Positions 11,105-38,472 of a stretch of DNA of 64,000 nt are shown piece by piece (within the stretch, counting starts at the first letter, position 1; each line of letters begins with the position of its first letter). Where the stretch lies: contig JAPJBO010000007.1 in the NCBI GenBank assembly GCA_030068145.1, forward strand, positions 1 through 64,000, read 5' to 3'. Both the position numbers and the translations under genes were made by a program. The DNA is from Diplonema papillatum. Lineage: Eukaryota > Euglenozoa > Diplonemea > Diplonemida > Diplonemidae. Under the pieces are notes generated by a model. That model did not search any database. It was given only the letters and a program-made list of their open reading frames with translations, and was not told the origin of the DNA.

Positions 11105-11152
11105 GTTTCTCCTCCTTTCGCTGTGTATTTAAGGCGTTTTCTACAGTCTCCG

Positions 11153-11656
11153 TACTTTGCCTTCAACGGGGGCTTCGTTGTATTGTATCGCAACTCGAAA
11201 AAGAGGGGCAGTGGGGGAAGGGGGAAGGGGGACAGGGTGAAAGATAAGCGTGCCGCTCCCCGAAGCCGCGGACGCGCCGCTGGTCGCGCGCGTGAAGCGG
11301 AAGCGAGACGAAGGCGACGAGTCGCTCGAGAGCGCAGCCCGGCAACGCCGAGCCGGAAGGCCGCCGCAAAGCGGACGCCGAGGACCCGGCGCCGACGACG
11401 TCGCCGACCGTCCAGCAAGCGCAAACCGACAACCTCACGCAGCACGCGAGCAACCTGTCCCCCAGGCGCCGCTGACGCCGCCCCCCGACGACACCACCGA
11501 GGACCGCAATAAGTCGTCGGCCCGGAAGGCCCGCCCCAAGTGCGGAAAAGCCGGCAAGGCGCCGGTCCCCCGTAGTGCTCTCTAGTTTTCCCACAACAAC
11601 AAACCTACGCATTCCTTTCGTTTCTCCTACTTTCGCTGTGTTTTCTGGACTCGTCG
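11153..11656 (+). repeat. Degenerate copy 1 of the kinase gene 5' end
   Basis: This unit of about 504 bp repeats the leader of the downstream Tousled-like kinase gene plus roughly its first 125 codons. The position of the start codon reads ATA (11244-11246) instead of ATG. After the 36th codon or so it lacks four bases present in the gene, which shifts the frame, and two further stretches of about 20-25 bases are missing. It ends in a CCCGTAG...CTCTCTAG stretch not found in the gene. Confidence 0.9.
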
Positions 11657-12144
11657 TACTTTGCCTTCAACAGGGGGTTCGTTGCAACGTATCGCAACTC
11701 GAAAAGAGGGGGAAGGGGGACAGGGTGAAAGATAAGCGTGCCGCTCCCCGAAGCCGCGGACGCGCCGCCGGTCGCGCGCGTGAAGCGGAAGCGAGACGAA
11801 GGCGACGAGTCGCTCGAGAGCGCAGCCCGGCAACGCCGAGCCGGAAGGCCGCCGCAAAGCGGACGCCGAGGACCCGGCGCCGACGACGTCGCCGACCGTC
11901 CAGCAAGCGCAAACCGACAACCTCACGCAGCACGCGAGCAACCTGTCCCCCAGGCGCCGCTGACGCCGCCCCCCGACGACACCACCGAGGACCGCAATAA
12001 GTCGTCGGCCCGGAAGGCCCGCCCCAAGTGCGGAAAAGCCGGCAAGGCGCCGGTCCCCCGTAGTGCTCTCTAGTTTTCCCACAACAACAAACCTACGCAT
12101 TCCTTTCGTTTCTCCTACTTTCGCTGTGTTTTCTGGACTCGTCG
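11657..12144 (+). repeat. Degenerate copy 2 of the kinase gene 5' end
   Basis: A 488-bp unit nearly identical to copy 3 and closely similar to copy 1. It has the same ATA in place of the start codon and the same internal deletions relative to the gene. The shared lesions show that one damaged copy was amplified, not that the gene was copied three times. Confidence 0.9.
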
Positions 12145-12636
12145 TACTTTGCCTTCAACAGGGGGTTCGTTGCAACGTATCGCAACTCGAAAAGAGGGGG
12201 AAGGGGGACAGGGTGAAAGATAAGCGTGCCGCTCCCCGAAGCCGCGGACGCGCCGCTGGTCGCGCGCGTGAAGCGGAAGCGAGACGAAGGCGACGAGTCG
12301 CTCGAGAGCGCAGCCCGGCAACGCCGAGCCGGAAGGCCGCCGCAAAGCGGACGCCGAGGACCCGGCGCCGACGACGTCGCCGACCGTCCAGCAAGCGCAA
12401 ACCGACAACCTCACGCAGCACGCGAGCAACCTGTCCCCCAGGCGCCGCTGACGCCGCCCCCCGACGACACCACCGAGGACCGCAATAAGTCGTCGGCCCG
12501 GAAGGCCCGCCCCAAGTGCGGAAAAGCCGGCAAGGCGCCGGTCCCCCGTAGCGCTCTCTAGTTTTCCCACAACAACAAACCTACGTATTCCTTTCTCCTA
12601 CTTTCGCTGTTTGTACGGCGTTTTCTACACTCGTTG
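12145..12636 (+). repeat. Degenerate copy 3 of the kinase gene 5' end
   Basis: A 492-bp unit directly preceding the leader of the intact gene. It differs from copy 2 at only a few visible positions, for example CTG against CCG near 12256 and CGC against TGC near 12552. The lesions are the same as in copies 1 and 2. Confidence 0.9.
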
Positions 12637-12720
12637 TACTTTGCCTTCAACGGGGGGTTCGTTGCAACGTATCGCAACTCGAAAAGAGGGGGCAGTGGGG
12701 GAAGGGGGACAGGGTGAAAG

Positions 12721-15700
12721 ATGAGCGTGCCGCCCCCCGAAGCCGCGGACGCGCCGCTGGTCGCGCGCGTGAAGCGGAAGCGAGACGAAGGCGACGAGTC
12801 GCTCGAGAGCGCAGCCTGCCCGGCGACGCCGAGCCGGAAGGCCGCCGCAAAGCGGACGCCGAGGACCCCCCGGCCCGCGAAGAAGAGGGCGGGCGCCGAC
12901 GACGTCACCGAGGACACCGCCAGCACCGCGACCCCGTCCCGCAAGCGCAAACCGACGACCTCTCGCAGCACCGCGAGCAACCCGTCCCCCCGGGCGCCGC
13001 CGACGCCGCCCCCCGACGACACCACCGAGGACTGCAGCAAGTCGTCGGCCCGGAAGGCCCGCCCCAAGCGCGGCAGACCCGGCAAGGCGCCGGTCCCCGG
13101 GCAGCGCGCCATCGCGAGCTTCCAGCAGCCCGCCGACTCCAACAACAGCGCTTCCTTCGCCGGCCCGGCGGCGGTCGTGCCCTTCGACTCATACCCGGCC
13201 GACGGCAGCGAAGGAGGAAGCCACACCCAGGCGACGCCGCCCGCCGCGGCAAAAGAAGGCTCCGGCGCCAAACCAAACGGGGCCACGCCCGCCGGCCAGA
13301 GCGCCGGCAAAGGCGCGGGAGAGCCCGCGCCGAAAACGGGCAAACCCGAAGGGAACGGCGGCGCCGACGCCGCCCCGCGCGTGACCAAACCGGAGGGCGC
13401 GGTTAAGGCACAAAACGGCAAGCTGCCCGACGACCGCGGGCCGGTGAAGCCAACCGCAGACGCACCGCCAGCGCAGGAAGCACCCACTCCGCAAACCCAA
13501 GAACCCGCCACCTCTGCAGCATCGAGCCCGGTGCAGCCGGATCCTGTCCCGACGACGGCGCGTGCGCAGCCGGCAGCTCAGCAGAAGACTCCTGCAGCCC
13601 CTTCGACGTCTTGCCTCGCTACAAAATCGCGGCCGTCGTCTTCGACCCACACCGCCAAGCTCACCACGGTAACCACGCCGGTCCGCACGGTGCGCAAGCG
13701 CCCCGCCGATGCCAGCGTGAACCAAGCGGAGAGCCCCAAAGGAAAGCCGGTGCGAGCCCCGAGGAAAACGCCGACGAAAGGCCAGGACCAGCCGGCTTCG
13801 GAAAAGGCCAAAGACAAAGACGGCAAGGACACGGACAAAGACGCGTTGGCGGTCGGCGGGGGCGTGAGCGTGTCGAGTCTCCAGCGCAAACGTATCGCGC
13901 CGACGCACCTCGCGGGCATTGGGAAGTGGACGCGGCCGCGGAGGCCGTTTCAGACCGTAGTCAAAGTCGAGAAGAGCTTGCTGAAATGCTTGAACCTGGC
14001 AGAAGGCGACACCAACGATCTTCTGGACGCAAGCTCAGGGTCATCAGACGCACAAGCTCCGGGTGATTTCGAAGACTCGGAGGCGAGTGTGACGCAAGAA
14101 TCCAACGACGAAACCTCGTCGCAGTGCTCTGCTAATCACGGAGTGCCTCCGGGGACGCCGCTTCAGAAGGCGGTTGTGAAGTCGCCACACTCCAAGTCAG
14201 CGTGCAGTCCGCATCACCCGAAGGCAAGTGGCGCCGTCCAAACAACCCTCGCCGCTGCTTCAACTTCCTTCGGCCCCAGTCTCGGTACGGCCGACCACAC
14301 TTCTGCACGCAGCCACCCACCGCCGCCGCCGTTCCCGCCACGCCGCACTTCAGACGTTGCGGCTAGCGTATCCATCGGCGTCGATCACATTCGCGTCATT
14401 GCCACTATGACCGAGCAGCAAGCACTCAACCACAGCATTCCCCTTGCGTTCTGGAGCAAAGCGAACCATCTCTTAGAGCAGCACGACCAGTGGTGCACAC
14501 CTGACGATGTGTCGCAGTCGGCCAACGCCCTCTCGGTGCAAGAAGCTCGGTTGGTATGTTCGCCGTCTTTCTCGTTCCGTCGGAGGGCGTTCAAAAAGCA
14601 AGGCACGTAGTAAGACTCAGGACCGAGACTGGACTTCGGCGAGCGTAACACCTATCCACACACAGGTCGATCTTGTAGAGAAATCCGTCACGCGGAAAAC
14701 TGGCCTGAAGAGGCATCGCCTTCGCCGAGAGTCGGCACTGCGTCAGCTCGAGTTGGGAACGGCTGCGGTATGCTCAAGACAGAAAAGGACTGTGATGATG
14801 CTTGATGGTTGAGGTTAGAATGCAGAATATCTGTAGCGATGGCCTGCATTAGGCTTGGTGGCGTAAACAAGTGCGTGTCAGCGATATGCCATGCCTACGT
14901 CAAACGTAGATCCCGCATGATGAAAAAAACAACAATTGCAGGTCGACACTTTTGGTGAAGCGACTGACGGCACAGTATTGCGAGAACTCCGCCAAACGAT
15001 AGCTGACCTCGACGACCGAAAACGGGCCCTCGAGGTGTGCTGTTCTGTCCCTTTCCAGATTTACGAAAGACGATGAACAAGTCGCTGAGGACAACGAGGG
15101 TCCGTCAACAATTCGACACTGAAAAAAAGCCTGGCACGGGATGAACGCGCTGAGTCATTCAGTCACTCTGATGTGCCCTTAGTTGCACGTTCACACGAAT
15201 CGTTCATTCGCGGATGGCAGTTCTGCTGGATAAGATAAAAGTAGGCAAAGAAGAAGAAGATGCGACCGCAGTATTGATGCCCTTGTATTTTGCGTGCTCG
15301 TTCTTTGCACCGTGGCCGCAAATCGTGCCCTCAGCTCGCAACTCCTTCTCTTCTCCGTGTGGGACTTCAACCATTGCTCTGCACACGGCAACCCCAGCCC
15401 TGCGGACTTCGCAGTTTGCCACCGCGAAAAGGAGTCTCCCCCGATTCGGATTTGCCATGTGCTCTCGTCGACGAAGTACGAACAGCCGCTGGACGAACTC
15501 GACTCACATCGTTGTCCTGTCTGCAGACGCTGATTGCTCCGCACACGTGTGTCCGGACCGAAACGCGGTGCAGACAGGACCCAGTGTCCGGCACACGCCA
15601 CACCAGTCACCCTTGCATTTTCCCCTTCTCTAATGTCAAGGGCCGCCCAGACCAACCAACGAACAATCGACAGGCGTCCATCAACGCCCGCACGAAGCAG

Positions 15701-16840
15701 CTGGTGGAGGACGTCGGCGACGTCGCCGCGCAGGCGAACGGGGTCTGGGTGGAGCCCGACTTTGTGCAAGACGGGGCCGAGCGGCTGGAGCTGCAGCAGC
15801 TGCGGAAGGACATCGCGGAGCGGACGAAGGAGCTGGACCGCGCCGAGGCTGAGCGGAGCAGCGTCGCCCGGAAGGCGTACCTCTTCCGGGCCGAAGACGC
15901 GAGCGCGTTCGCAAACTTCCGGACGCTGAACGACCGGTACCTGATGGTCGAAATCCTCGGGAAAGGCGGCTACTCTGAGGTTTGGAAGGCGTTCGACAAG
16001 CGCGACCCGCGCATGGTCGCGGTGAAGGTGCACCAGCTCGAAGAGGCGTGGTCGCCGGAGAAGAAGGCGAACTACATCCGGCACGCCCGGAGGGAGTACA
16101 ACATCCAAAAGGAGCTGATCCACCCGCACATCGTGCGACTCTTCGACTGCTTCAACGTGAGCAGCGCGTCCTTCGCGACCGTGATGGAGATTTCAGGCCA
16201 CGGGGACTTGGCGGAGTACATGGAGAAGCACCGCACTGCCCGCGAGAAGGACGCAAGGATCATCATCCGCCAGGTGCTGTCAGCGCTAGAGCATCTGAAC
16301 AAAGGCGTGAATGAAGGGAAGAAGGTCATCCACTACGACGTCAAGCCTCAGAACGTGCTGTTCTTCGGCGAGCTCTTCGTGAAGCTTGCCGACTTCGGGC
16401 TCAGTAAGCTGATGGACTCAGATGTGGCGTCGATCGAGCTCACCTCCCACGGCGCGGGGACCAGATCTTACCTTCCCCCGGAGTGCTTTGCCGGCATGCC
16501 TGGCAGCCAACGGTGGATTTGTCCGAAGGTCGACATTTGGAGCACCGGCGTCATTTTCTTCCAGCTGCTGTTCGGAAAGAAGCCGTTCGAAACCGCCCGC
16601 GCCTCGTTCGTCGAGTCGCTGATCCCCGGCCAAGTCCCGCAGACCTTGGACGTCCCCTCGCAGCCGAAAGTGTCGAAGGCGGCGGTCGACATGGTCACGA
16701 GGATGCTGTCACGCGACCCCAGTGCGCGACCCTCTGTCACCGAGCTTCTCCAAGCTTTCCTTGACGAAGACGGCGTGCCTGCTCAGAGCGTCGACGGTCG
16801 ATCCGAAGAAGAGACGAAGGCGAAGAGCGACAAGAGCTGA
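12721..16840 (+). CDS. TLK: Tousled-like protein kinase (four exons)
   Basis: Exons inferred at 12721-14553, 14666-14767, 14942-15034 and 15674-16840. All three introns are phase 0, with donors GTATGT, GTATGC and GTGTGC and CAG acceptors. Exon 1 encodes a disordered, basic, Pro/Ala-rich region with several nuclear-localisation-like Lys/Arg clusters. Exons 2-4 encode the coiled coil typical of the family. The segment before the kinase domain, FANFRTLNDRYLMVEILGKG, and the following GYSEVWKAFD closely match animal TLKs ([20 protein letters not shown]). Catalytic features: glycine loop GKGGYSEV, VAVKVHQL lysine, HYDVKPQN loop, DFGLSK, and YLPPECF. TLKs are nuclear Ser/Thr kinases that phosphorylate the Asf1 histone chaperone and act in chromatin assembly; the same role here is inferred. 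A further small exon within 15035-15673 cannot be excluded. The start ATG is the one lost in the upstream repeat copies. Confidence 0.88.
15472..15605. repeat. Dispersed repeat inside kinase intron 3
   Basis: The sequence around TACGAACAGCCGCTGGACGA shares a patchy match of more than 100 bp with 34639-34830, including the block CCTGTCTGCAGAC and a GGACCGAAAC block. This marks a dispersed repeat family and argues that this part of the 639-bp intron is not exonic. Confidence 0.6.
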
Positions 16841-18399
16841 GAGCCGCGCTCACGCATTGCATCCCGCCGAACCTTCCTCAAAAGTGGGTACGCGGCTGGC
16901 GAACCGTCCCCGAAAGCTGCATCACAGCGATCACAGTGCCGTGGCTCTCGAAGTAGCCGATTCCTTGCTTTGCTCGGTTGCCGAGGAAAACTAGAGGGAG
17001 AAACGTCACATCGCTCTCGGACAACTGTGCCGATTTGTGTGCGATGTACATCATCCCATTGCGTGAACGCAGAAGCGTTACAACGAAGATCGCGCAAATG
17101 CAGCCGCCAAGAAAGGGAGTATCGTTCGGTACAAAGCTTAGGAATTGGATCCAGCGGGATGGGATGTAGGACACGCAAGCCCATAAACCACATGAACCAA
17201 CGTGAACCGTTCCTGTGGTGTCTGGGCTTGTGTGTCATACACCCGATCCCGCTGGATCCAAATCCCAAGCTTTTCTCAGTGAGACAGGTTCAAGGCCGCA
17301 AGCGTGGCTTTCCCGCTTCACGCCTTGGACAGTGTCACAATGTCGTGAAACTTTTCAAAGTCTTTTGTGTGAAAAATATGCTCTCACTGCGAAGAAGTCC
17401 CGTGGGAACGTGCCGTGCGAGATGTAAACATGTCAAAACAGTGCCCTGGCTCACACAAGCAAAACCCGGACATCTAATCGTTATCCGTTGCGTCGTCGCG
17501 GCATCAAGTCAGGGCACCCCGAGCCTCTGTGAAATCCTCAGGCTCGCGTCCCTGCGTGCCCTGAGGTAGACTGCTCACGGGACAGCAGATGCACAGAACG
17601 TTGCATCCACGGAGGGTCTTTCTCGCTTCTTTCTTCTTACTTTCGTAGACGCTCCCGACCCGCCCGTCGCCCGCAGACCTTGCCAGCAGAGAGGCCCTCC
17701 TGCAGCGGACGAGAGAGTCTCTTTTCTTTTCGAACCCGCGACCTGACCTTTTTGAAGGACGGGTTCCCGAAGACGAGACGAGGAAAAAGGCCGAATTGGG
17801 GAGCGCTTGCAGCCAGCAACGAACCGCGGCAGGAACCGGGCGCAGGCGTCTCCAACGAAAACAACATGTAGAACGTGGGGGGCCCAAGACAACACCCAAG
17901 GAATATACAGGAATATACTTGGTGTCGGTCACAAACAGTCCCGGACATGTGTAGTCACAACTCATAACGAACACCAAAACTCATATAGCCCTTTCTTGCC
18001 CTAAGAGAACCCATTTAACAACGGTCACACGGAGACCCTAAAATTCCGGAGTCTCAAGCGAACTTTAACTCTGAAAAGGGACTCGTTTTGGGGTTGCATT
18101 GTTTGCCCCCTGTAACTTCCGTCGGAATGAGTAACCGAACCTCCGAGTATTTGCATGCAGAAGGGCGCCAGGGGAGCGAATCGGAATCAGGGTCGACGAC
18201 CAAGCTAGTTTTGAAGTTCTGCAAACACGGTAACCAGCGCGCCTGTCTTTATAGGTGGATCCCTCGCACACAAAGAGATGCTGCGCATTTGTTCCGGCCA
18301 AACGCATTGTCTGCAATCCCTGCAGATAGAGAACCACGAGACTTACTTTTCCTTAGGAACAATCAGCAAAGTCGAGGAAAGGGAAAATACTCTTCCACG
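16841..18399. other. Intergenic region between kinase and hydroxylase 1
   Basis: No gene is recognised. The interval holds a long inverted repeat at 17133-17273 and, 340 bp before the next start codon, the motif GCGAACTTTAACTCTG (18058-18073) that recurs elsewhere in the window. The frame of the next gene stays open upstream to 18088, but that extension is not conserved in the duplicate gene, so it is treated as leader. Confidence 0.5.
17133..17273. repeat. Inverted repeat with 51-bp arms
   Basis: Arms 17133-17183 and 17223-17273 are imperfect reverse complements, including the blocks GGATCCAGCGGGAT and ATCCCGCTGGATCC. The loop of about 39 nt has a smaller ACCACA/TGTGGT stem inside it. It resembles a miniature inverted-repeat element, but no target duplication was identified. 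Confidence 0.8.
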
Positions 18400-21300
18400 A
18401 TGCAGCGCGTTCTTCTGAAGCAAGCCGATGGCCACAGCACGGTAGCCTTTCGCCGTTCTGCGACCGAGCAGCACTCGTTGATGCTGAGCAACGGCACCGT
18501 TGCGTCAGTGGTGGCTCGCGAGGGCGAGTTCATCAAAATCGTAACGAAAACGGGCGACGTCGGCTTCGTGAAAGCACGCAACGCGAAGCTCATCGTCGCG
18601 CCGACTGCGACCGCCGCGCCGAAGGCCACTCCCAAGCGGGCACCGTTGGCCGTCGAGGTGCAGCAAAAAGTTCCATCGGACAAGGCGGCTACTAAACAGA
18701 TCGTCTACGAGGACCAACCAACCGCGCAAGCAACTGCCGTCTGCACGTTCAATGTCAACGGAACGCAATACACGGTAGACACGAGCAAGGTTGACATGGA
18801 TCCCGAACTCTCGGTTCACGACTGGATGGCCGCAAATGTCCCCAATGTAGGCGTACGGCGTTCCTGCGGCGTCGGCCATTGTGGCGCGTGCGTGTCAATG
18901 CTGACGTATGCCGACACGACTACCGGGAAGACAACCAGCCGGTCATTCAATGCGTGCATCAGGCCAATTCTGGCGTGCAATGGCATGTCGATCACGACGT
19001 CGCGCGGCATCGGCAGTGAGCGCAACCCGAACGTGGTACAGTCGACGCTCGCCAACCTAGGCGGCTCGCAGTGCGGATTCTGCAGCGTTGGGATGATCAT
19101 GAACCTGTACGCGAAGTTGGCAGACGCGCCCGACGGCTTGACCGCTGCCGAGCTTGACAGCTCTCTCGACGGTAACCTGTGCAGATGCACTGGTTACCGT
19201 CCCATTGCGGAGGCGTACAAAACATTCGCGAAGGATCAGCCGTCAGCAGTGACCCCTCCGCCCGAAGGCAAGTACACTCACCTGAAGAAGACGCCTCAGC
19301 AGAAGGCTGTTGCAGTGCACCCTTCGTTGCCGAAGACGAAGGGGAATCTGAAAGCTGGCACACGTGCGCCGTGGTACGAGGTAACCACTGAGGCAGAGCT
19401 GGCAACGACGTTGCAGGCACTGCAGAAGCAGAACCCGCAGCCGAACGATATCTTCCTTGTTGCAGGACACACGACGAAAGGGATTTACACGACGAGGCAG
19501 CCGGACGCGCTGGTTTCGATCCACGCGATCTCGACACTGGCAGCATGTTCTGTGACGTCGAACGGAGTTGCCATTGGAAGTGCTACGACGATGACAGACG
19601 CGATTAAGTTCTTGGAAGGAGTTGTGACCTCCCAAGATGCTGTGAAAGTCACCGCCTTCAAACGCATGGCAGAGCATGCACACATCTCCCCCGGTAACAA
19701 CATCCGAAACACGGGAACGATCGGTGGCAACGTGATGATGATGTACGAGCATCAAACAGACGGTGCGTCGTTCCCAACGGAGTGGCCTGTCCTTCTGCAA
19801 ACTGCTGGCGCGACGCTTACCATCGTTGATACCACGGCGCAGACGCAGACTGATTATTCGATGGAAGACTTCTGGAGCATACCATCGATGAAGTTCAAGT
19901 ACATTCAAAGTATCAAGGTGCCCTTCTCATCTGCAGGTGACTTCTTCATGACGTACCGGTGCGCGCAGCGCAACGTATTCGCCGAATCATATCTCACGTC
20001 CGGCATGGCAACGAACGTGCAAAACGGGAAGATCACGCCGGGCTCCACCCGCCTCGTCTTCAGCAACATCGACACGAAGCCGATCCGCGTCACGACGATT
20101 GAATCGCGCATGGACAATATGGCTGTCAATGACGAGGCGGCCATGGTCTCCCTATGCACCGACATCCAAACGACAGTAAAGCCGCAAGGTGACTTCGGCG
20201 ATGTCGCCTACCGTACGGCGCTCACCGGATCTTTCCTGTACAAGTTCTTCCTCGCCCTGCAGCCGACGCTGCCCGCTTCTCTGCAGTCCGCGGCGCAGCC
20301 GTGGCTGCCGAAGGCACCGACCACCGGGTCACAGAAGTACCAAGCCGACCCCTCTGTGTATGCATTGTCTCCTCTCTCACTGGAAGTGTGCGCGCACGTC
20401 GTCTTGATTTGCTTGCAGGGTTCTTTCGAAGGATGGCAAAACGTTGCAGCCTGTCATCTTTTGTCCAATAACTTCCACCCAATCACACAGGGCCCCGCTG
20501 AGCATGCCCGTGCCGAAGATCGATGCCATTAAGCAGTGCACTGGCGAGGCCGAGTACGTGCAGGTATGTCCGCGCACAGCTGCTTTACGCATTATTGTGG
20601 GCGTTTTCTTGTGTGTGCATGCCTGCGATTGTGCACCCCTCGTCTTTTTTTTCCTACGAAAAAGCCACGCTCACATCAACGTTTGCGACGGGCACTGTCG
20701 CAGTTGTATGGTGCGTGTGCCACGACCACACGGTCTTCTGTACCACACCATGTTTGCTCCACTGTGTAGCATGAGGGGTAGCAATGCGGTACTGCATCCC
20801 GCGTCAGTTTCCTGTACCGGCTTCGGGCTCAGATACAGTGCTCCCGCTAAGGAAAAAACCGGAGGAATTCCTCAAAATAAAAAGGTGCTGAAAAATGCCC
20901 CGGAGGAATTCCTCCGGGGGGACCTGAGGAATTCCTCCGGCCTGGTACCTGGGGCGTAGGAGTGAACCCGTGTGGGTGTAGCTCGCGACTAGTACTGGTC
21001 ATGAAGTCTTTGCAGAATCTTTCTACCTCGACTTTGGCACCTGCGGCACGGACTGCTTCAAAAAACCGCGCCTGGGGCACAAGATGTGGCTGATGGTGCG
21101 AGCATGTTGTCACATTTTGCGTCAAAACTGACTGAGTCCACCACAAAACTGTGAAGAGGGAAGGACAGTGTCTATCCTCATGCTTACCAGGAGTTGTGCT
21201 CTCAAATACTCTTTGGGCAGACCGCTGTGTGTGACACCATGCCAGTTTTCGGGATCTTCGTACTGCCCCTGACAAGGCCTCCAATTTTTTTCCGCGCCTG

Positions 21301-24300
21301 CGGCGCAGGTATTCTTGACTATGTAGGACTATGTCTCGTTTCGTCCAAGTGTCCATGGGGAAGAGGCTCGGACACGAAATCTGCAAGTACTGCAATGCAG
21401 GAGTACCCGAAGACGAGCAGCACATGTGGTGGGAATCCACCAGATGGGCCGCAGTGAGGAGCGAGTATTCACACCTTCTCGCAAGCCGCCCGAACATGCC
21501 AAAATGTCTTGCTCTCTGTGACTGGTAGGACTACCCAGCTTGTGCACTGCACGAACAGCATGAAATTGCTGGTGTTTGTTTCCTCCGGCATGTCGGGGGG
21601 TTGGCGGTGGGATCCAATCTCAGAAGCTGGAGTCAAAGCTACAGTGAAAAAAGCGGGTGTGGTGCGGATTCACGCGCATTTTGGTTGTGGTGGAGCAACC
21701 CATCTAGCTCCAGCTCACCCTGGGAGCACTGACAGACACTGCTAGAAAAAGCGCGACACTGCGACAGCGCCAAAAAAAAAAAAAAACCTTTCCTGATTTA
21801 GGCTTCCTCCGGCATTTCGGAGGTAAGCGGGAGCACTGCTCAGATCAGTGCTCCCGCTAGCGAAAAAGTGCGAGGAATTCCTCAAAAAAAAAGAGGCTCG
21901 AAAAAAGAGGGTGAGGAATTCCTCATGAGGAATTCCTCACCTTTTTCCGATTGGTGGTATCGTCTAGCCAAAGCACTGCATCACGGTCTACTCTCTGCTG
22001 GGCATGGTGGGCTGGCGGGTAGAAGTTGGGGGCTGGAGCTGAGAAAGAGAGTCGAGGCTCAGAAGCAGCCCCGGATTTCTTGACAGATTCTCTCCGAGTC
22101 GACACAAGTGCCTTGTTCCATGTGATCTCTGGTCTGCATCTACTCGTGGCAATGATTTACCAGCACACAGTATCGAGTGGTGGTTGAATTTGAAATGGGC
22201 TGTTGCCTTCAGGAATGTTGGTGTGGTCGGTATAGCCTAGGGGAACTACGGGGGAACTACGGGGAACTGACCTTGGGGTGTCCTTTTTTTTTTTCCGTAG
22301 GGGAATTTTTTCAAACGCCACGCACCGGCGCAAAACCCGGAGCTTTGGAGTGACCAAAACGGTTCCTCTTGCTTGGGCCTTCCACAACAGGCGAAGCCTT
22401 TCGAAAAATAGAGCCTGTCGGTGGAAACGGGGCGCCGGGGGTGGTGCTTTCGTGCCGCCGTGGAATGCGCACGCGTGGAAGGATTTGTTGAAAAAGTAGA
22501 CTCGACCGCTATCGTAGGACTCGCAAAAGTCGGTTGCAGGAACCTAAGTAAAGCTCGCTACCGGCCCTTCAACGTTCGCCAGGAGACTGAAGGAAAAGCT
22601 CAGTTGCGACCATTGCGTGCTTGTACAGTTCCTTGAACATAATCGCGTTTTCGTGACGGATGGCAGAGGCCGATCGAGATCTAGGATATCTTGGACAGCC
22701 CACAGGTAAAATTGGTCGGCAGCACGCAATCAAGAGTCCCATGGTGATTTGATGAGGACAGTCATAGACGAAAGGATGTGCTTGCTCAGCAAGCTGAGTC
22801 CAACTTGTGTCTGCAAGGGAAGCTGAGTTACTTCTTGATAAACTGCATGCCCTCACCCGAAGCATGCGATTCAAGGCTAATGTTGTTGCGGGCAACCTGC
22901 TCTACGATCTCTGGAACAGAAGGATGCAGAGCCCGAAGAACCCAAGGCTTTCCAGCGTCCGAAATCTCCCTCCCGCCAGCGAAAGAAGCAAACAAGCCAA
23001 GAGCCTCTCCTGGCGCGCCATTCCGACACTCCAATCCCTCTTGGGTTTGGGCAAGAAGGTGATCCGCAATCACGTTCAGAGGCCCAGGTGGCGTTTGCTT
23101 CAGCTCCTCTACTCTGGGAGAAACCGGAAGCTCGCCATAGCCATCTTATCCTCGGCCAAGCACCAGTTTCTCCTCCTGCAACGCAACCTTGTCTTCAGCA
23201 TGGCCATTCTGACTGTCATTCTGGTTATCAACCTTACTCCTCGCTCGGGTTGCCGTCTTCGACCGCGACCGCCTCTGATAGTTTGGGTTAGAATGCAAAT
23301 AATCTGTGGCGATAGTTTGCATCGCCGGTGTCGCGATTATCTCTTCGTAGGTGATGTGTCATGGTTTCGCCTCTTTAGCTCGTCTTGATCGTCGCGCTCA
23401 GGCGCGCGTTTGGTGCCTCGCTTCTTCTTCGATTGCTCGTCCAGGTTCATCGGTTGCGCGTCGATTTCTGCTTCTTCAAGGCGCTAGGGCGATGACCGTG
23501 TTGCCTTCTGTGGGGTCGTCTGCCCGCTCAGCTTCTTCGCTTGCGCTTCGATGCGTCCTTTGCGCCTTTTGATACCGGCTCCGCCGCGGAGTCCGATTGC
23601 CGCTTCTTCGCTCGCGTTGGCGCCGTCTTCTCGACCTTCGCTCTCGGTGGCGATGAGGTTTCCCGCTCTTCGGTCCCATCTTCTCCCGCTGCTTCTGGGA
23701 GCGTTTTCCCTCTTCCACCTTCGGTGCAGAACGGGGCTCTCCGCCTTCTTCTTCTTTGCTGTCTTCTCCGCTCGCCAAGGCCGCCCGGTGGTGCCCCTTC
23801 CGACAGCACAGTTTGGGCCTTCGACTTCGCAAGTCCGCGCCGGCTCCACCACGGAAGATCGGCCTCATCTCGTACCCCGTGAGGCACGGCGGGGCTCCCG
23901 CCGTTCTCGGCAACCCTATCCTCTCCAGTTTCCTGCCTGGCAGAAGCGGTCCGTCGCCGTTTCGCTCCAGCGCATCCCCGACGGTTTTTAAAAGTTTTGC
24001 GAGTACCCTCGCACGCATGCTCAACGGTGTCCCGTCCGTCGTCGCTACGACACTGCCCGGAAGATCCAGTCCGGTGCACACTTCAAAGTCGACGGCGAGC
24101 TCCGCCGTCGAGACGTCACCACCGACCAGCACTTCCCATCCAGTCAATACTGCAGCGCCCGGAACTACCTCTCTCCTCCGACCGCCGCGAAGGTCTCCGG
24201 TCCCGCGATCGCTTCGAAACCCGGCCGGCGCGGGGCCTCTGATATGCTCTCCTTTTTGCCGCAGCTAATCCTGTCACTACCTGTCAAACCGTGACTCCCA

Positions 24301-27300: not shown

Positions 27301-27655
27301 TGCGTTCGTCATTGGCGTGGGACACGCGACTGTTGAGGAGTGTCAATACTACCCCAATGGGTCCCTTCAGTGGTACAATTACGTCATCCCGACACCTTGG
27401 GACACGCCTGCCGAAATGAACGTAACGCTTGCTACGGAGACGCCGAACCCATACACTGTCGGCGGCGGCAAGGCCATCGGCGAGCCAGCGGTCACGATGA
27501 CCTTCGTCGCCATCGAAGCCATTGAAATGGCGCTGAACGCTGCGCAAAAGGACGCCAACGCCACCGTGGTCCAGTCCGCCAGCGTCCCGCTCGCCATCCA
27601 GCAGCGCTTCTCCCTCGGCGCTGTGTCGGCGGCTGACTTCAAACTGCAGTCATAA
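18400..27655 (+). CDS. Molybdenum hydroxylase 1 (XDH/aldehyde oxidase family)
   Basis: Exons inferred: 18400-20357, 20491-20563, 25248-25317, one or two small uncertain exons in 25318-25610, and a last exon 25611-27655. Domains in order: an SH3-like N-terminal domain (residues about 4-65), a plant-type [2Fe-2S] domain (CGVGHCGAC), a second [2Fe-2S] domain (QCGFC and NLCRCTGYRP), a FAD domain (RNTGTIGGNVMM), the CO-dehydrogenase flavoprotein C-terminal domain, then the molybdopterin domains. The latter show GGFGGK, GGTEIGQGLTTK and the catalytic-Glu motif GGGKAIGEPA. The expected reaction is oxidative hydroxylation of a purine or aldehyde with NAD or oxygen as acceptor. The substrate is uncertain: Arg of the FRGFG motif is kept (MRAPG), but the position of bovine XDH Glu802 appears to be Thr. 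Intron 2 (20564-25247) is swollen by nested transposons. A tandem paralogue follows. Confidence 0.85.
20836..21838. mobile_element. hAT-like element C
   Basis: It begins CAGTGCTCCCGCTAAGG at 20836 and ends with the complement TAAGCGGGAGCACTG at 21838. The flanks are CTCAGATA (20828-20835) and CTCAGATC (21839-21846), an 8-bp duplication with one mismatch. CAGTG ends with 8-bp duplications are typical of hAT transposons. It contains palindromic GGAATTCC motifs near its left end and a reverse-transcriptase-like remnant. No hAT transposase is seen, so it is non-autonomous. It lies in intron 2 of hydroxylase 1. Confidence 0.75.
21331..21528 (+). pseudogene. Possible LINE reverse-transcriptase C-terminal remnant
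   Basis: A 65-codon frame containing CKYCNAGVPEDEQHMWWEST, a CxxC...ED..H.WW pattern found near the C-terminus of many non-LTR retrotransposon polyproteins. No polymerase motif lies upstream in any frame, so this is a fragment at most. It is carried inside hAT-like element C. The assignment is by motif pattern only. Confidence 0.4.
21846..25001. mobile_element. hAT-like element D, interrupted by family-1 copy B
   Basis: It begins CAGTGCTCCCGCTAG at 21846 and ends TTAGCGGGAGCGCTG at 25001. The exact 8-bp duplication GCTCAGAT lies at 21838-21845 and 25002-25009. Both ends carry GAGGAATTCCTC-type palindromes just inside the inverted repeats. Without the inserted element (22219-24717 plus one duplication) it would be only about 650 bp, the size of a non-autonomous hAT derivative. 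It abuts element C: the last base of C is the first base of D's duplication. Confidence 0.85.
22219..24717. mobile_element. Family-1 DNA transposon, copy B
   Basis: It begins TGGTGTGGTCGGT at 22219 and ends ACCGACCACACCA at 24717, flanked by exact 5-bp duplications AATGT (22214-22218 and 24718-24722). Subterminal GGGGAACTACGG motifs are present at both ends, doubled on each side. It is inverted relative to copy A and is about 1 kb longer; the extra sequence is GC-rich (about 23380-24250). In that extra part a minus-strand frame of 223 codons (23476-24147) has an Arg/Lys/Glu-rich C-terminal half but no recognised transposase motif. It is inserted within element D. Confidence 0.85.
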
Positions 27656-28448
27656 TCGGCAGCGCTAGCTTCTTCGATCAATGCCAACGATTCGTACAAT
27701 ATGAGCGTTTCGAAACAATGCCAGCGACACCAACAATACCCGGGGTCACCCCCTGTCGTGGAATTCCCCTACCCATTCCTTCCTCACACAGCTTCAGCTT
27801 TTCGGTGCGCGTCTCATTCTTTCGCTTTTATGGCCTCGAGTAGGAATAGATATCCTTCGGCGACGAGAATCTGTTCAGCACAGGAAATGGCGGCCGGTGG
27901 CCGCCGGCGGGAATCACTTTTTTGCTCCAGTCGCGCCAAAATGGCTGGAGGTCAGCACCCCAGCCCCACAGCCCCTCCAGCGCTTGGGTTTGAACTGAGG
28001 CCGCTCGGCCAACTCATTTATGCAGCGGTGCAGCGAATTCGTCACGCAGTTTCGCTCAAACGAGGAGCGAATGTATCCTCTAGGCATCGACATATCCTGT
28101 GCCAAAGTCTTCTGTTCGAACTAGTCAAGGCATTCCCTGAGTCCGGCAGAGGGGTGAGCCAGTCCCGCCGGTCCTTCACAAAATTGCACCAATTTGGTGC
28201 GCTATCCTCATACCTCGGAAGGTTGCTTCAAAAGCGAGTTTGATGTTTAGTTTAGTCTGGTCGTCTGGCACTAAAAATGATCCTTCGGCTGCTAAACCTT
28301 ACATATTACCCGAGACCATGCAGCGTGACACAATTGGCCGCCCTCTAGTAGTTCTGAGTGGATACGCGACACCCAACCGAGAGGGCAAGTATACTCACAA
28401 ACTATCCCTGCAGGTGCTACCAAAAACGGAAAAGGTAGACCCTCCACG
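27656..28448. other. Spacer between the two hydroxylase genes
   Basis: About 0.8 kb without a recognised gene. The sequence just before the second start codon resembles the first gene's leader only over the last few bases (CCACG before ATG), so the duplication boundary lies almost at the start codon. A small GC hairpin is present at about 27889-27910. Confidence 0.55.
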
Positions 28449-31400
28449 ATGCAGCGCGTGCTTCTGAAGCAAGCCGATGGCCACAGCACGGTGGCCTTTC
28501 GCCGGTCTGCGGCCGAGCAGCACTCGTTGATGCTGAGCAACGGTACCGTTGCGTCAGTGGTGGCTCGCGAGGGCGAGTTCATCAAAATCGTAACGAAAAC
28601 GGGCGACGTCGGCTTCGTGAAAGCACGCAACGCGAAGCTCATCGTCGCGCCGACTGCAACCGCCGCGCCGAAGGCCACTCCCAAGCGGGCACCGTTGGCC
28701 GTCGAGGCACAGAGAATACCATCGGACAAGGCGGCTACTAAACAGATCGTCTACGAGGACCAACCAACCGCGCAAGCAACTGCCGTCTGCACGTTCAATG
28801 TCAACGGAACGCAATACACGGTAGACACGAGCAAGGTTGACATGGATCCCGAACTCTCGGTTCACGACTGGATGGCCGCAAATGTCCCCAATGTAGGCGT
28901 ACGGCGTTCCTGCGGCGTCGGCCATTGTGGCGCGTGCGTGTCAATGCTGACGTATGCCGACACGACTACCGGGAAGACAACCAGCCGGTCATTCAATGCG
29001 TGCATCAGGCCAATTCTGGCGTGCAATGGCATGTCGATCACGACGTCGCGCGGCATCGGCAGTGAGCGCAACCCGAACGTGGTACAGTCGACGCTCGCCA
29101 ACCTAGGCGGCTCGCAGTGCGGATTCTGCAGCGTTGGGATGATCATGAACCTGTACGCGAAGTTGGCAGACGCGCCCGACGGCTTGACCGCTGCCGAGCT
29201 TGACAGCTCTCTCGACGGTAACCTGTGCAGATGCACTGGTTACCGTCCCATTGCGGAGGCGTACAAAACATTCGCGAAGGATCAGCCGTCAGCAGTGACC
29301 CCTCCGCCCGAAGGCAAGTACACTCACCTGAAGAAGACGCCTCAGCAGAAGGCTGTTGCAGTGCACCCTTCGTTGCCGAAGACGAAGGGGAACCTGAAGG
29401 CTGGCACACGTGCGCCGTGGTACGAGGTAACCACTGAGGCAGAGCTGGCAACGACGTTGCAGGCACTGCAGAAGCAGAACCCGCAGCCGAACGATATCTT
29501 CCTTGTTGCAGGACACACAACGAAAGGGATTTACACGACGAGGCAGCCGGACGCGCTGGTTTCGATCCATGCGATCTCGACACTGACAGCATGTTCTGTG
29601 ACGTCGAACGGAGTTGTCCTTGGAAGTGCTACGACGATGACAGACGCGATGGCGTTCTTGGAAGGAGTTGTTGCTTCCCAAGATGCCGCGAAAGTCACCG
29701 CCTTCAAACGCATAGCGGAGCATGCACACATTTCCCCCGGTAACAACATCCGAAACACGGGAACGATCGGTGGCAACGTGATGATGATGTACGAGCATCA
29801 AACAGACGGTGCGTCGTTCCCAACGGAGTGGCCTGTCCTTTTTCAAACTGCTGGCGCGACGCTTACCATCGTTGATACCACGGCGCAGACGCAGACTGAT
29901 TATTCGATGGAAGACTTCTGGAGCATACCATCGATGAAGTTCAAGTACATTCAAAGTATCAAGGTGCCCTTCTCATCTGCAGGTGACTTCTTCATGACGT
30001 ACCGGTGCGCGCAGCGCAACGTATTCGCCGAATCATATCTCACGTCCGGCATGGCAACGAACGTGCAAAACGGGAAGATCACGCCGGGCTCCACCCGCCT
30101 CGTCTTCAGCAACATCGACACGAAGCCGATCCGCGTCACGACGATTGAATCGCGCATGGACAATATGGCTGTCAATGACGAGGCGGCCATGGTCTCCCTA
30201 TGCACCGACATCCAAACGACAGTAAAACCACAAGGCGACTTCGGCGATGTCGCCTACCGTACGGCGCTCACCGGATCTTTCCTGTACAAGTTCTTCCTCA
30301 CCCTGCAGCCGACGCTGCCCGCTTCTCTGCAGTCCGCGGCGCAGCCGTGGCTGCCGAAGGCACCGACCACCGGGTCACAGAAGTACCAAGCCGACCCCTC
30401 TGTGTATGCATTGCCTCCTCCGATTTTACTGCGAGCTCCGGAGAACCCGAAGATGCCCGCCTTCTCGTCTGCTTACATTACGCCGCGTGACAAACGCGGT
30501 TCTCTCATCGTTTCAGCATCGCCTGTGCGCTTGCTAAGGAGCCTTCATCAAATCAAACAGGGCCCCGCTGAGCATGCCCGTGGCGAAGATCGATGCCATT
30601 AAGCAGTGCACTGGCGAGGTCGAGTACGTGCAGGTATGTCCGTGGCAGTTTGCGATGGGAGGCGGCAAGCCAAGTCAGTCATTTCTGCGCCCAATCGAGC
30701 CTGTTTGCCGCAGGTACAGCAAGGATGACGTACCTCACTCGTGTTGGTCCACAATTGTAGCCACAAGTTGTCGCTGAACTGTACTGGCTTCTCGGTGCCA
30801 GAACAATGTCACTTACACACTTTGAACGTGGACAAGGAAAGTTGCCAACTGGAGATGACAGAGGATCTGTTGCCACTGTAGTAACAACAGAGCCGTAGTC
30901 GAAGGCCCAACTGCCTCGTCAACTTGGGTTTGTAGCACCACTTGCATTCGGCAGGTGAATTGCTAGATCGATGCACATCATCAGATCCGAGGAGCTCTCC
31001 TCCGAGCGAAACCCGAAAGATTTTGTCGCCGGAGCGCCACTGACCCCTCTCGCAAAGCTTTCTCACGACACCTTACCGTCCAGAGATACGTGCGAAGAAA
31101 GAAAACTCAAAATTGCGTCCTATACAAGATGGGAGAAGGCGCCAAAAGTAAGCGAATTGTTGTCCGACAACGAAAAGTAAGAAAATCAAACAAAAGCTAT
31201 CGCGCGTCTCTGCCTGGCAACGCATAAAAAACTTGCACTCTAAACACTCGCGCTTCAACAAACCGCAGAACATCCCGGCCACCAACGCTACGCTTCACGG
31301 GGCTATCGTCGCCGCCTCGGCCATCGGCCAGTTCACGAGTATGCTCTTGTTTCCACGCAACGCAAATTCGCGTTTGTCTTTGGGGAATGAGAAAGGGCTC

Positions 31401-33910
31401 ACCGTGTTTGCTAAACCCTGTACACGTACCTCATGTACGCGGAAAAGCAAATCATGAACGAACCGAATTCTAGTACAATACACGGTAAGCGAAATCCTCT
31501 TTTAAAGATTAATTTTCTCTCAACTCCCTCTGACAGAAAAGGCAGTTGCCGTGGTGTCGCACTATTGCTCGACGTTAGCTGCGCTTACTACGCGTTGGGA
31601 AGTCGACGGCCCGGGTAAGCCGCTGGCCTGGAAATCTAGCAGGCCTGTTCTCGCCTTTCGATGCGAGGGAGTTGAGCTGGTGCTCTCGTCCAGCGTCCTT
31701 CGACGTCGCCGAGAGTTATCAGATAATTAATCTTCTTTCAATTCCATCTTGAGGGTTATCATTGAAATGTCAAGTACATAATATGCGTGAAGTGAATACC
31801 ACCCGTGAGGTAAGACGAGGCCGAAGGTTACCTCGTTAAACTACCCTGGACCAATCTACGCACAGTTTCTGACGATGGCGTGGCCGACTCGGTGGGAACG
31901 TACCAAGGAATGCTAGTGGCCAGCGATCTTCCTCCCAGCCAAAACATGCTGGCACGGGGAAGCACAACGAACATCGGGCAGCCTGTAGCAATTGCGCTGG
32001 CCGGGACCCCTCAAGATGCCGCCAATGCCGCTGCAGCCATCACCGTCACCATAGCCAACCCGAAGGCATCGCCAATCATTACTATCCCCGAGGCTATTGC
32101 GGCTGGCAACATCAACAGCACGGCGAAGTTTTCCTGCGGGAACCCTGCAGGCGCTTTTGCATCCTGCGACAAGACCGTTGAAAACCAGTGGAACATGGGG
32201 CAGCAGTACCACTACCACATGGAAACACAGTCGGCTATGTGCGAAGTCTCGAGCGACGGCATTTACACCGTCCACTCGTCAACGCAGATGCCCACCATCG
32301 TGCATGGTGCAGTCTCCTCTGCTCTGGGAGTCTCTCAGTCTCAAGTGGTCGTCAAGAACAAGAGGTGTGGTGGCGGCTTCGGCGGCAAGCTGACGAACTC
32401 CGCTGCCACAGCACAGCTGGCGGCTGCTGCATGTTACGCAAAGGGGGTGCCAGTTTCGCTGGTTTATGAGCTCGATACGAACATGCTGAGCTACGGGTTG
32501 CGCCCACCGTGGCTGATCAACCTGAAGATTGGGTACAGCACCGACGGGACGATTCAAGTAGTACAAGTGAGAGGAGCCGTAGATGCTGGGACTGCTGCTG
32601 GTGATACGAACGCCACGTTGCAGGCCTTCATGGGCGCGTTCGACAACTGCTACAACATTCCGAACTGGGACGTTCAGATGCAAAGCGTAAAAACAGATCT
32701 TCCGGCCAACACGTCGATGCGTGCACCTGGTTGGATGCCCGCCGTCTACACTGCTGAACGGATGATTACCACTGTAGCAACAGACTCCGGTCTTGACGCG
32801 ATGACAATTCGTGAGAAGAACTTCTACCAGAAGAACGACGTCACACCGATGGGTATGAAGCTGACCGGATGGACAATCACTGACCTGTGGCAGCAGACCA
32901 TGGCCTCCGCAAACTTTACGAGCAGGTTGCAGAGCATCAAGCAATTCAACGCCAACAACCGTTGGGTGAAGAAGGGCATTGCTATGGTACCAAGCAAGTT
33001 CAATGTGGGCGCTGGTAGTACGAATTCGTTCGACTGCTCGCTGATTGTGAATGCGGACGGCAGTGTGACCGTGATGACCGGTGGGACGGAAATCGGTCAA
33101 GGCTTGACGACAAAGGTGGTACAAACAGTCGCGTACAACCTGAACATCCCAATGGGATTCATTACCATCGCGGAGCAGAGTACGACAGTGCTCAAGGCAA
33201 CCGACGCCACAGGTGGGAGCGTCGGCTCCGAGCTGTCGTGCAGAGCTGCGAAGAACGCGTGCGAGAAGATCAACCAGGCACTCGCCACGATCAAGTCGCA
33301 GAATCCAGACGCCTCCTGGGCGCAATGGGTGGCAGAAGCTTACAGCAAGAAGGTGTCTCTGAATGTCATGGCCGACTGCGCGGGCGTCCCAGGCGGCGTC
33401 GACCCGGCTGGTGATATTTACAACACGTACGGAGTCGGCTGCCTTGAAGCCACCGTCGACATTCTGACAGGCCAAATCATGTTGGACCGTGCCGACATTA
33501 CGTACGACCTCGGCCGCTCCGTCAACCCGTTTGTCGACATCGGCCAGGTGGAGGGTGCGTTCGTCATTGGCGTGGGACACGCGACTGTTGAGGAGTGTCA
33601 ATACTACCCCAATGGGTCCCTTCAGTGGTACAATTACGTCATCCCGACACCTTGGGACACGCCTGCCGAAATGAACGTAACGCTTGCCACGGAGACGCCG
33701 AACCCATACACTGTCGGCGGCGGCAAGGCCATCGGCGAGCCAGCGGTCACGATGACCTTCGTCGCCATCGAAGCCATTGAAATGGCGCTGAACGCTGCGC
33801 AAAAGGACGCCAACGCCACCGTGGTCCAGTCCGCCAGCGTCCCGCTCGCCATCCAACAGCGCTTCTCCCTCGGCGCTGTGTCGGCGGCTGACTTCAAACT
33901 GCAGGCATAA
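28449..33910 (+). CDS. Molybdenum hydroxylase 2 (XDH/aldehyde oxidase family)
   Basis: Tandem paralogue of the preceding gene. Exons inferred: 28449-30403, 30561-30633, 31269-31338, one or two small uncertain exons in 31339-31865, and a last exon 31866-33910. Intron positions and phases match copy 1. Cys155/160/163/185 would bind the first [2Fe-2S] cluster and Cys224/227/260/262 the second. FAD and molybdopterin motifs are as in copy 1, including IGQGL and the catalytic AIGEPA. The iron-sulphur/FAD half and the last about 430 residues are almost identical to copy 1, while the segment from about 31880 to 32640 differs at many residues (for example LVYELDTNML against LICELGTNML). Intron 2 is only 635 bp here. 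Both copies look intact, so both could be expressed. The physiological substrate is unknown. Confidence 0.85.
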
Positions 33911-35753: not shown

Positions 35754-35873
35754 GCGCGTGAATGACCTGTGAGAGTCGACTGCTGATTAACCAGGTAGGT
35801 CAATAGTGACAGAAGGACTCTCACAGGTCATTCACGCGCTGTCACTATTGACCTACCTGGTTAATCAGCAGTC
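35754..35873. repeat. Interleaved perfect inverted repeats (A-B-A'-B')
   Basis: Segment A is 35754-35777 (24 nt) and B is 35778-35812 (35 nt). After the 3-nt spacer AAG, A' (35816-35839) is the exact reverse complement of A, and B' (35839-35873) the exact reverse complement of B. A' and B' share one base. The order is A-B-A'-B', not the nested A-B-B'-A' of an ordinary hairpin, so a transcript would have pseudoknot topology. No gene overlaps it. Confidence 0.95.
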
Positions 35874-36631
35874 AAGGAACGGACTTAGCACATCGGTTTC
35901 AAAGAAGGCCTACCGACGTTTTGCGATAGAAATAATAATGCTGGGGTGTGAATTTGAAGCGCTGTTCCTGTTGTCGGGCTCCGCGTGGATTCTTCGGCCC
36001 CTTCCATCATAACATGTTTCGCGAACCCTTTCCCTGCCCTCGAAAGATGAAAGGAACCCCAAGCTCAAGCAACTTCCGCCGATCTGTGCCCATGAAGAAA
36101 CCAGCCGCCCTCCAGGGTGGGCTCGCCTGCCACTTGCTGCTCTTCGGGGGAACATCAATTTCTATCCGGCTGCGTTGTACCATACCGCGCGTGCAGTTGT
36201 TTGCCAGCAGTGACACCAGCTCTGGGCCCGCATGTCTCAGCACCTTGCTTCGAATCTCTTGTGTTTCAACCGTTCTCTCTGAAAGCAGGATGCCGAATTC
36301 CATGACCACCGCGAAGAAGGAGCCAGCGCTGGGACGTTCTCGTCGCACTCATACACGCGAAATGCGCTACGAGTCAGTTCACGCACTCCAATTGGAACTG
36401 GAGCAAAGCGTGCGGATACCGGGTTTCAGGAGAGTTCGGGCAGGCTGCAGCGGGACGAAGGTGGCGTCAGTCTTCCGCAGATGGCGAACGGTAGGTCCCC
36501 TACCACACGAGGTTCTTTTAGTGCTAACAATCTTGCGGTTGCCCTTCAATATATTGTGCAGGCTAAAAAGACGTAGGCAGCGTGTTTTGGTGGCTGATCA
36601 GATACACAGGGTAAATACAAGTGGGAAAACG
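35874..36631. other. No gene recognised
   Basis: A 268-codon open frame (35948-36754) covers this interval, but it has no recognisable domain, runs into the tandem repeats downstream and has unremarkable composition. It is not called as a gene. Confidence 0.45.
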
Positions 36632-37347
36632 ATCAACCGGCACGCACAAACAAACGATGGCGCCTGCCTTTTTTGCACTTCATGGCTATTCCATGCGCAG
36701 GAATGTTTGAGATCGCACACCGGTATTCTTGACGCACCACGCACAGAGCAGTAAAGCGGACCGCGTCGCAGGTGGCACAACCCGAAGGAGCCCGTGCGGC
36801 AGGGAGTGGAGACGAGGTGATACAAGACGAAGGAGAAGCGCGAAGCGACCAGCCCGGGCGGACCAGCAAGACGCAAGACCAGGGCGACCAAGAGAAGGAG
36901 GGGGACGCGACCCAGAGACCCGGGCTAAGTAGCCTGGAACTAGTGTGATGGACCTTTCTCCGGAGGGGCTCACGCACTCAAAAGTTCGACTTATACGCAC
37001 CACGCACAGATCCCCCCCCCCCCCCCCCCCCCCTCCCCGCCCCGTTCCCTCAAAACACCCATCAAAATTATCGGAATTGGGGTATGCCGCAGGAGGACGG
37101 GCTTCAAGCGAGCCCAGTCCATGACGAAGACGGAGAGTCATCTGACTTCAGCCTGCAGAGCCCGCCGGAGCTGCACCCGCGGGGCTTAAGCCCCGGGGGG
37201 TCGCAGGAGTGAGACGTGGGCACGCACAAACAAAACGAGGTGCCTGTCTTTTTCCACGGCGCAACGACTTGCGCCCGCCGTAGTAGTACGGGATAGTAGT
37301 GGGGCGACCGGATACTCCTCGGAGAGATGGTCCCTGCACTCTAACTC

Positions 37348-37389
<42 letters not shown>

Positions 37390-38312
37390 GCACTTCGCGG
37401 CTATTTCATGCGCAGGAGTGTTTATCCACGCCGAGGGGAGATCGCACGCCGGTATTCTTGACGCACCACGCACAGATCCCCCCCCCCCCCCCCTCCCCGC
37501 CCCGTTCCCTCAAAACACCCATCAAAATTATCGGAATTGGGGTATGCCGCAGGAGGACGGGCTTCAAGCGAGCCAGTCCATGACGAAGACGGAGAGTCAT
37601 CTGGCTTCAGCCTGCAGAGCCCGCCGGAGCTGCACCCGCGGGGCTTAAGCCCCGGGGGGTCGCAGGAGTGAGACGTGGGCACGCACAAACAAAACGAGGT
37701 GCCTGTCTTTTTTTGCACTTCGCGGCTATTTCATGCGCAGGAGTGTTTATCCACGCCGAGGAGATTCTTGACGCACCACGCACAGATCCTCCCACCCCCC
37801 CCCCCCCCCGCCCCGTTCCCTCAAAACACCCATCAAAATTATCGGAATTGGGGTATGCCGCAGGAGGACGGGCTTCAAGCGAGCCAGTCCATGACGAAGA
37901 CGGAGAGTCATCTGACTTCAGCCTGCAGAGCCCGCCGGAGCTGCACCCGCGGGGCTTAAGCCCCGGGGGGTCGCAGGAGTGAGACGTGGGCACGCACAAA
38001 CAAAACGAGGTGCCTGTCTTTTTTTGCACTTCGCGGCTATTTCATGCGCAGGAGTGTTTATCCACGCCGAGGGGAGATCGCACGCCGGTATTCTTGACGC
38101 ACCACGCACAGATCCTCCCACCCCCCCCCCCCTCCCCGCCCCGTTCCCTCAAAACACCCATCAAAATTATCGGAATTGGGGTATGCCGCAGGAGGACGGG
38201 CTTCAAGCGAGCCAGTCCATGACGAAGACGGAGAGTCATCTGACTTCAGCCTGCAGAGCCCGCCGGAGCTGCACCCGCGGGGCTTAAGCCCCGGGGGGTC
38301 GCAGGAGTGAGA
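36632..38312 (+). repeat. Four degenerate tandem copies of the SLC44 gene 5' end
   Basis: Units of about 290-580 bp repeat the leader of the SLC44-type gene (a TTTTTTGCACTTC block, a C-rich run, CCGTTCCCTCAAAACACC) and its first 40 or so codons. The positions equivalent to the start ATG are 37084, 37544, 37855 and 38183; the gene's own ATG is 38473. All copies end in a TTAAGCCCCGGGGGG... sequence with a TGA that is absent from the gene. Copies 2-4 also lack one C in the AGCCCAG stretch, shifting the frame. Copy 1 is interrupted by about 220 bp (36756-36975). Copy 2 holds an insert with a CT microsatellite (37349-37384). C-run lengths differ between copies. Confidence 0.9.
37084..37212 (+). 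pseudogene. 42-codon truncated SLC44 N-terminus in repeat copy 1
   Basis: Copy 1 of the array keeps the same frame as the gene from its ATG (MPQEDGLQASPVHDEDGESS...) and stops at a TGA after 42 codons. It could be a relic or a short upstream open frame if the array is transcribed. The other three copies are frameshifted within the first 12 codons. Confidence 0.6.
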
Positions 38313-38472
38313 CGTGGGCACGCACGAGGTGCCTGTCTTTTTTTGCACTTCGCGGCTATTTCATGCGCAGGACGCCGAGGAGATTCTTGACGCACCACGC
38401 ACAGATCCTCCCACCCCCCCCCTCCCCGCCCCGTTCCCTCAAAACACCCATCAAAATTATCGGAATTGGGGT

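Follow-up and report, generated by a model that had tools for sequence, protein, structure and literature searches.

Upstream of two unrelated genes of Diplonema papillatum, one for a Tousled-like kinase (TLK) and one for a choline-transporter-like (CTL) protein, the leader and the first codons of the gene are repeated in tandem, and the question raised by this locus is whether such arrays mark a process directed at the 5′ ends of genes. Both arrays lie in the first 64,000 nucleotides of contig JAPJBO010000007.1 (assembly GCA_030068145.1), the whole of which was analysed and is referred to below as the window. A preliminary description of this DNA had regarded them as 5′-end amplifications, inactivated as coding sequence, that might have arisen by replication slippage or template switching at promoters or by selection for multiplied leaders.

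Sequences and survey sample

The assembly searched comprised 271,365,524 bases in 2910 contigs and is probably the published D. papillatum assembly (280,293,864 bp in 6181 contigs; PMC10161547, cited throughout for a part of its text) without the small contigs of the latter. The survey of gene borders covered the window and the next 200 kb of the same contig, a contiguous sample of 264 kb (0.1% of the genome), in which tandem pairs were listed and coding segments were called by codon-pair score. The border counts omit minus-strand segments, arrays with a period of less than 100 bp and three coding segments that were recognised as spare copies and taken out by hand. Two arrays of protein repeats, one at 116-123 kb and one at 200.5-203.5 kb, were likewise taken out by hand from the border counts, the shift test and the identity cuts. 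The tally of random points still includes the array at 116-123 kb, which adds one 5′ copy upstream, one 5′ copy downstream and one 3′ copy upstream. For the analysis of decay, ten copies were aligned with their genes, comprising one unit for each 5′ case (n = 5) and five 3′ copies, two of the ten being supplied by the ANK gene. The gene labels ANK, AAA and RCC were read from translations.

Anatomy of the two arrays

The likeness among the repeats was far above chance (a self-alignment of 1517 bp at 91%). Self-alignment placed the units of each array head-to-tail and in the sense direction, directly upstream of the gene and 5′ of the ATG that opens an intact ORF, and each unit carried the leader and the first 45-126 codons of its own gene (Table 1). 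What is copied, its placement and the intactness of the downstream gene were thus as the preliminary description had given them.

Array 1, at 11099-12587, begins slightly upstream of the start first given for it and contains three units of about 488 bp, unit 1 being 515 bp owing to its longer leader. Identical ungapped positions numbered 474 of 488 between units 1 and 2, 483 of 486 between units 2 and 3, and 425 of 460 between unit 1 and the TLK gene copy; for unit 3 and the gene copy the figure was 419 of 442, in an alignment that had 113 gap columns. The start codon, ATG in the gene, is ATA in all three units, which also have five CDS deletions (4, 23, 22, 1 and 1 bp) in common, and these cancel (4 + 23 and 22 + 1 + 1) to leave a frame that is open though devoid of the ATG. 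Because ATA and all five deletions are common to the three units, decay preceded amplification or the units were homogenised. From its position and strand, we infer that the ORF 3′ of this array, which gave no Pfam match, is part of the kinase gene.

Genome-wide, neither the TLK units nor the copy within the gene matched anything but this locus (one candidate, scored). An earlier genome search had given a 60-base likeness to the TLK query on C83, and by eye the sequence at about 10985-11125, just 5′ of the array, resembles that flanking the C83 match; part of the TLK leader may derive from a repeated element. A second TLK-like kinase gene was seen at C353:28034-29005 (47% identical over query residues 165-488).

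Array 2, at 36641-38318, contains four units, of which two measure 311-327 bp and the two with inserted elements 461 and 579 bp. The element in unit a lies between 15-bp direct repeats, ACGCACCACGCACAG (36732-36746 and 36995-37009), is missing from the other units and has at least 58 genome matches including itself (the best 40 of 3948 first-look candidates were scored). Units b to d keep the ATG, have a 1-bp deletion in common and reach a stop after 34 codons; unit a, free of this deletion, runs for 42 codons before its stop. In genome searches beyond the array, the CTL units matched by their leader only, over about 36-51 bases around 37974-38038 and at 39 places or more (the best 40 of 335 candidates were scored). 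This short dispersed motif opens the CTL units (GGCACGCACAAACAAAACGAGGTGCCTGTC...) and may be where a mobile element ends, at the border of the unit. Among the matches scored, no second place held whole units of either array, and both arrays appear private to their loci, part of the CTL leader being the dispersed motif. A search of the window against Rfam gave no family at or above its gathering score. A 16-bp unit is repeated about 42 times, with 76% matches, at 61195-61863.

Table 1. Repeat units, associated genes and border copies on the contig (TLK, Tousled-like kinase; CTL, choline-transporter-like)
Feature	Position	Strand	Description	Basis
Array 1, unit 1	11099..11613	+	TLK leader copy and decayed first ~126 codons; leader most divergent among units	self-alignment
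Array 1, unit 2	11614..12101	+		self-alignment, pairwise alignment
Array 1, unit 3	12102..12587	+		self-alignment, pairwise alignment
TLK gene's own copy of the repeated segment	12588..13098	+	leader and codons 1-126	self-alignment, pairwise alignment
Intact ORF 3′ of array 1	12721..14610	+	read as first coding exon of TLK gene	
TLK kinase exon	15629..16840	+		best solved match 5o0y_A, tousled-like 2, E 1.9e-75
Array 2, unit a	36641..37219	+	CTL leader copy and CDS start, 42 codons to stop; interrupted by inserted element	
SINE-like dispersed element inside unit a	36747..36994	+	248 bp, between 15-bp direct repeats	
Array 2, unit b	37220..37680	+	insert of ~124 bp at about 37254-37377, ending in TC repeats	
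Array 2, unit c	37681..37991	+		self-alignment, pairwise alignment
Array 2, unit d	37992..38318	+		self-alignment, pairwise alignment
CTL gene's own leader and first 45 codons	38319..38607	+		pairwise alignment
Intact choline-transporter-like gene	38473..40371	+		PF04515, E 1.5e-22
5′-end copies upstream, ANK gene	87548-88911			
5′-end copies upstream, AAA gene	114059-115118			
5′-end copies upstream, RCC gene	192796-193677			
3′-end copies downstream	C7:79711-80065		scored	
3′-end copies downstream	C7:89608-90025		scored	
3′-end copies downstream	C7:112464-113158		scored	
3′-end copies downstream	C7:176120-177103		scored	
3′-type copy	142519-142755		outside border counts, among the ten copies aligned	by eye only

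Three origins could be judged from this anatomy. Wrong duplication or collapse of repeats during assembly might be suspected from TLK units 2 and 3, which are 99.4% alike, but units and gene differ by shared as well as private changes, with private insertions among them, and one such array was checked with long reads by the genome's authors (PMC10161547), so that an artefact is hardly credible. The units might also be remnants of whole-gene tandem duplicates, the upstream copies having lost their 3′ parts. A xanthine-dehydrogenase-like gene nearby does form an apparent whole-gene tandem pair (18394-27655 and 28443-33910; from repeats and translations, with Pfam on one member); the three TLK units, however, all end at one position, where the next leader begins at once, and no later part of the gene was found between units in the alignments, which makes this origin improbable. 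Copying by way of mRNA was rejected: the gene-side repeats reach about 130-280 bases 5′ of the ATG (alignment coordinates), well beyond the usual 5′UTR of about 70 bp in D. papillatum (PMC10161547), and DNA rather than mRNA was therefore copied.

Correspondence to repeat-bounded gene structures

The preliminary description knew of no named system of this kind. Such a feature has in fact been published for the same genome, since Valach et al. (2023) describe "repeat-bounded gene structures" in the text and the Fig. 2 legend of PMC10161547. These occur at 5′ ends and at the 3′ ends of exons or genes, and the 5′ region is repeated in "many" cases; the example, DIPPA_19968, has 12-13 copies in an array that is supported by long reads and absent from the mature mRNA. 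The published structures have part of the 5′UTR and CDS in tandem upstream of an intact gene, with degenerate copies, and at other genes repeats of an exon's 3′ end that extend into the intron or 3′UTR; here, likewise, tandem copies of 5′UTR and CDS were found beside an intact gene and 3′-end repeats at other genes. They differ in that the published example is another gene and in that rates, a shift test and an analysis of decay are absent from the section on nuclear gene structure. Within the diplonemid literature the wording of the figure was found in PMC10161547 alone, and a further wording-based search returned nothing relevant, as judged by title and the start of the abstract. The observation itself is already known, and the arrays of the window are an independent rediscovery with first numbers.

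Decay of the copies

In the CDS part of the 5′ copies (all five cases), 12 deletions and no insertions were counted relative to the gene, and in the five 3′ copies 9 deletions and 8 insertions. In the leaders belonging to these five 5′ copies the balance was inverted, 20 gaps falling in the gene and 8 in the copy, which means that sequence was lost from the gene's leader as well or was gained by the copies. Differences between gene and copy fell on codon positions 1, 2 and 3 in numbers of 24, 32 and 35 (ten copies), that is, with no third-position excess. Divergence was unevenly spread, amounting in ANK to 16.7% in the leader and 0.9% in the CDS and in CTL to 0.7% and 9.7%, which suggests conversion or local constraint. 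The ATG and an open frame are kept in three of the five 5′ copies, over 180, 121 and 81 codons, although deletions put part of the second out of frame with the gene. Inactivation as coding sequence therefore applies to both arrays of the window but not to these three further cases in the next 200 kb.

The same alignments bear on selection for multiplied leaders, by which additional acceptors or short upstream frames would serve in gene regulation, perhaps as decoys or by insulating the gene from upstream read-through. The open frames just mentioned would agree with it, as would the CTL leaders of unit d and the gene, which differ at 1 of 153 aligned bases (plus four gaps). Against these stand the codon-position counts, the ANK leader, which has diverged more than the rest of its copy, and the published example, whose array does not enter the mature mRNA (PMC10161547). 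Selection of this kind, suggested in the preliminary description, thus found no clear support, and we regard it as very doubtful.

Gene order and trans-splicing

A 20-mer that we take to be the 3′-terminal part of the diplonemid spliced leader matched the genome 624 times (328 + 296), as against no match for the reversed pattern, and in the four loci inspected it was preceded each time by the same 17 bases. No GT follows directly in three of these four loci. The 624 exact matches exceed the 110 SL RNA genes given in PMC10161547; many of them may be relics in retroposed mRNAs. A scan for acceptors by pyrimidine tract found no AG after the best tract in four of the five CTL leaders, where it had picked poly-C runs.

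Within the 264 kb, 57 of the 61 coding segments lie on the plus strand, and three of the other four lie together at 165920-170030. This agrees with PMC10161547, where the genes of D. papillatum are described as one-strand arrays that are likely co-transcribed and essentially all mRNAs as carrying spliced leaders. Because of this gene order and of the co-transcription and spliced leaders inferred there, a cause based on promoters, including slippage at promoters, fits poorly and is unlikely.

Frequency of copies at gene borders

Copies of the 5′ edge lay upstream of 5 of the 48 plus-strand coding segments and copies of the 3′ edge downstream of 4; the reverse placements (5′ edge downstream, 3′ edge upstream) were each found at none of the 48. 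Circular shifts of the gene map gave an expectation of about 1.5 per border type, and the sum was 9 as against about 3. The observed values were reached in 33 (5′), 246 (3′), 3 (sum) and 1848 (5′-minus-3′ difference) of 5000 shifts, so that borders carry more copies than shifted maps would predict, and the two kinds of border cannot be told apart. With a looser segment threshold (54 segments) the counts were again 5 and 4, and the shifts reaching the 5′ value, the 3′ value and the sum numbered 69, 358 and 11 of 5000. A comparison like the one that had been proposed, of 5′ ends with 3′ ends and here with shifted positions, thus yielded on 264 kb an excess at borders and, over all identities, none specific to 5′ ends, and location at 5′ ends is not established as the defining feature.

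Tandem copies covered 4.2-4.4% of random noncoding points and, with the protein arrays included, 6.8% and 5.4% of random points inside coding segments, which is above the noncoding level. After the filters, 32 clusters of tandem duplication were counted in the 264 kb. The ANK gene (C7:87548-90025) has both a 5′-end copy upstream and a 3′-end copy downstream.

When the copies were sorted by identity, upstream 5′ copies and downstream 3′ copies numbered 5 and 2 at 80% or more, 5 and 0 at 85% or more and 3 and 0 at 90% or more, cuts that were chosen after the data had been seen and that concern one contig. Such figures would be expected if 5′ ends were hotspots, that is, if the trans-splice acceptor and first codons were duplicated more often (R-loops, stalled forks or breaks close to processing sites being possible causes) and recent duplications were consequently 5′-biased. 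At 85% or more, the five upstream copies compare with a shift mean of 0.82-0.89 (reached in 1 or 2 of 5000), and the published statement that the 5′ region is repeated in "many" cases (PMC10161547) points the same way. The near-equal counts over all identities, the post hoc choice of cut on a single contig and the 23 of 32 clusters that have no scored coding edge weigh against a hotspot, which we consider unlikely, if worth keeping in view; younger copies may be 5′-biased.

Proposed origin of the arrays

The arrays are probably instances of the published repeat-bounded structures that arose by ordinary tandem duplication and decay, were tolerated at gene borders and were later re-amplified. 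Tandem duplication of a few hundred bases would be frequent in this genome, and where it spanned a gene border the outer copy would be harmless because each mRNA is cut out of a long co-transcript and trans-spliced on its own. The spliced leader would be joined at the acceptor beside the intact gene, so that an upstream copy would stay outside the mature mRNA, and a downstream copy would fall in the 3′UTR or an intron. The spare copy would then decay, and decayed units would be re-multiplied or homogenised by unequal exchange, slippage or conversion into near-identical dead units. This account is supported by the anatomy of the arrays, by their decay and its being common to the units, by the lack of a second locus with whole units among the matches scored, by the one-strand gene order and by the similar copies at 3′ edges; we infer neutrality, the mechanism of exchange and acceptor use at the TLK and CTL genes.

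A model of borders that is symmetric may be incomplete, given the 5 vs 0 copies at 85% identity or more, and the border excess may be more than tolerance alone would give, although constraint on one copy keeps a pair recognisable for longer. Taken further, gene borders would actively attract short tandem duplication, the recent events lying on the 5′ side, and trans-splice sites would serve both as hotspots of duplication and as a breeding ground for short upstream frames, so that UTRs and gene ends were steadily remade; this we judge distinctly unlikely.

Minisatellites grow by unequal crossing-over or slippage, and the near-identical inner units and more diverged outer unit seen here are like theirs; unlike them, the units include coding sequence and probably a spliced-leader acceptor. 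Introns can arise by tandem genomic duplication between two AGGT sites, as described in the part of PMC3443670 used here, and there too a short genic tandem duplication is made harmless by RNA processing. In the exon-end array at 112464-113158, GTA follows three of the four repeats of the exon-end motif. The process in PMC3443670 differs in placing a new intron inside the CDS, whereas both arrays of the window precede the start codon and do not call for a new cis-intron.

Significance

An anatomy that looks striking at a single locus is common in this genome, and a first rate, from a small sample, can be put at 5 upstream and 4 downstream border copies per 48 coding segments in 264 kb. As decay is common to all units, it came before amplification or went with homogenisation, which gives an order of events. 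For gene prediction such copies are a practical warning, as the genome's authors note (PMC10161547). If the 5′ bias of young copies should be true genome-wide, trans-splicing would be linked to where duplications arise or survive.
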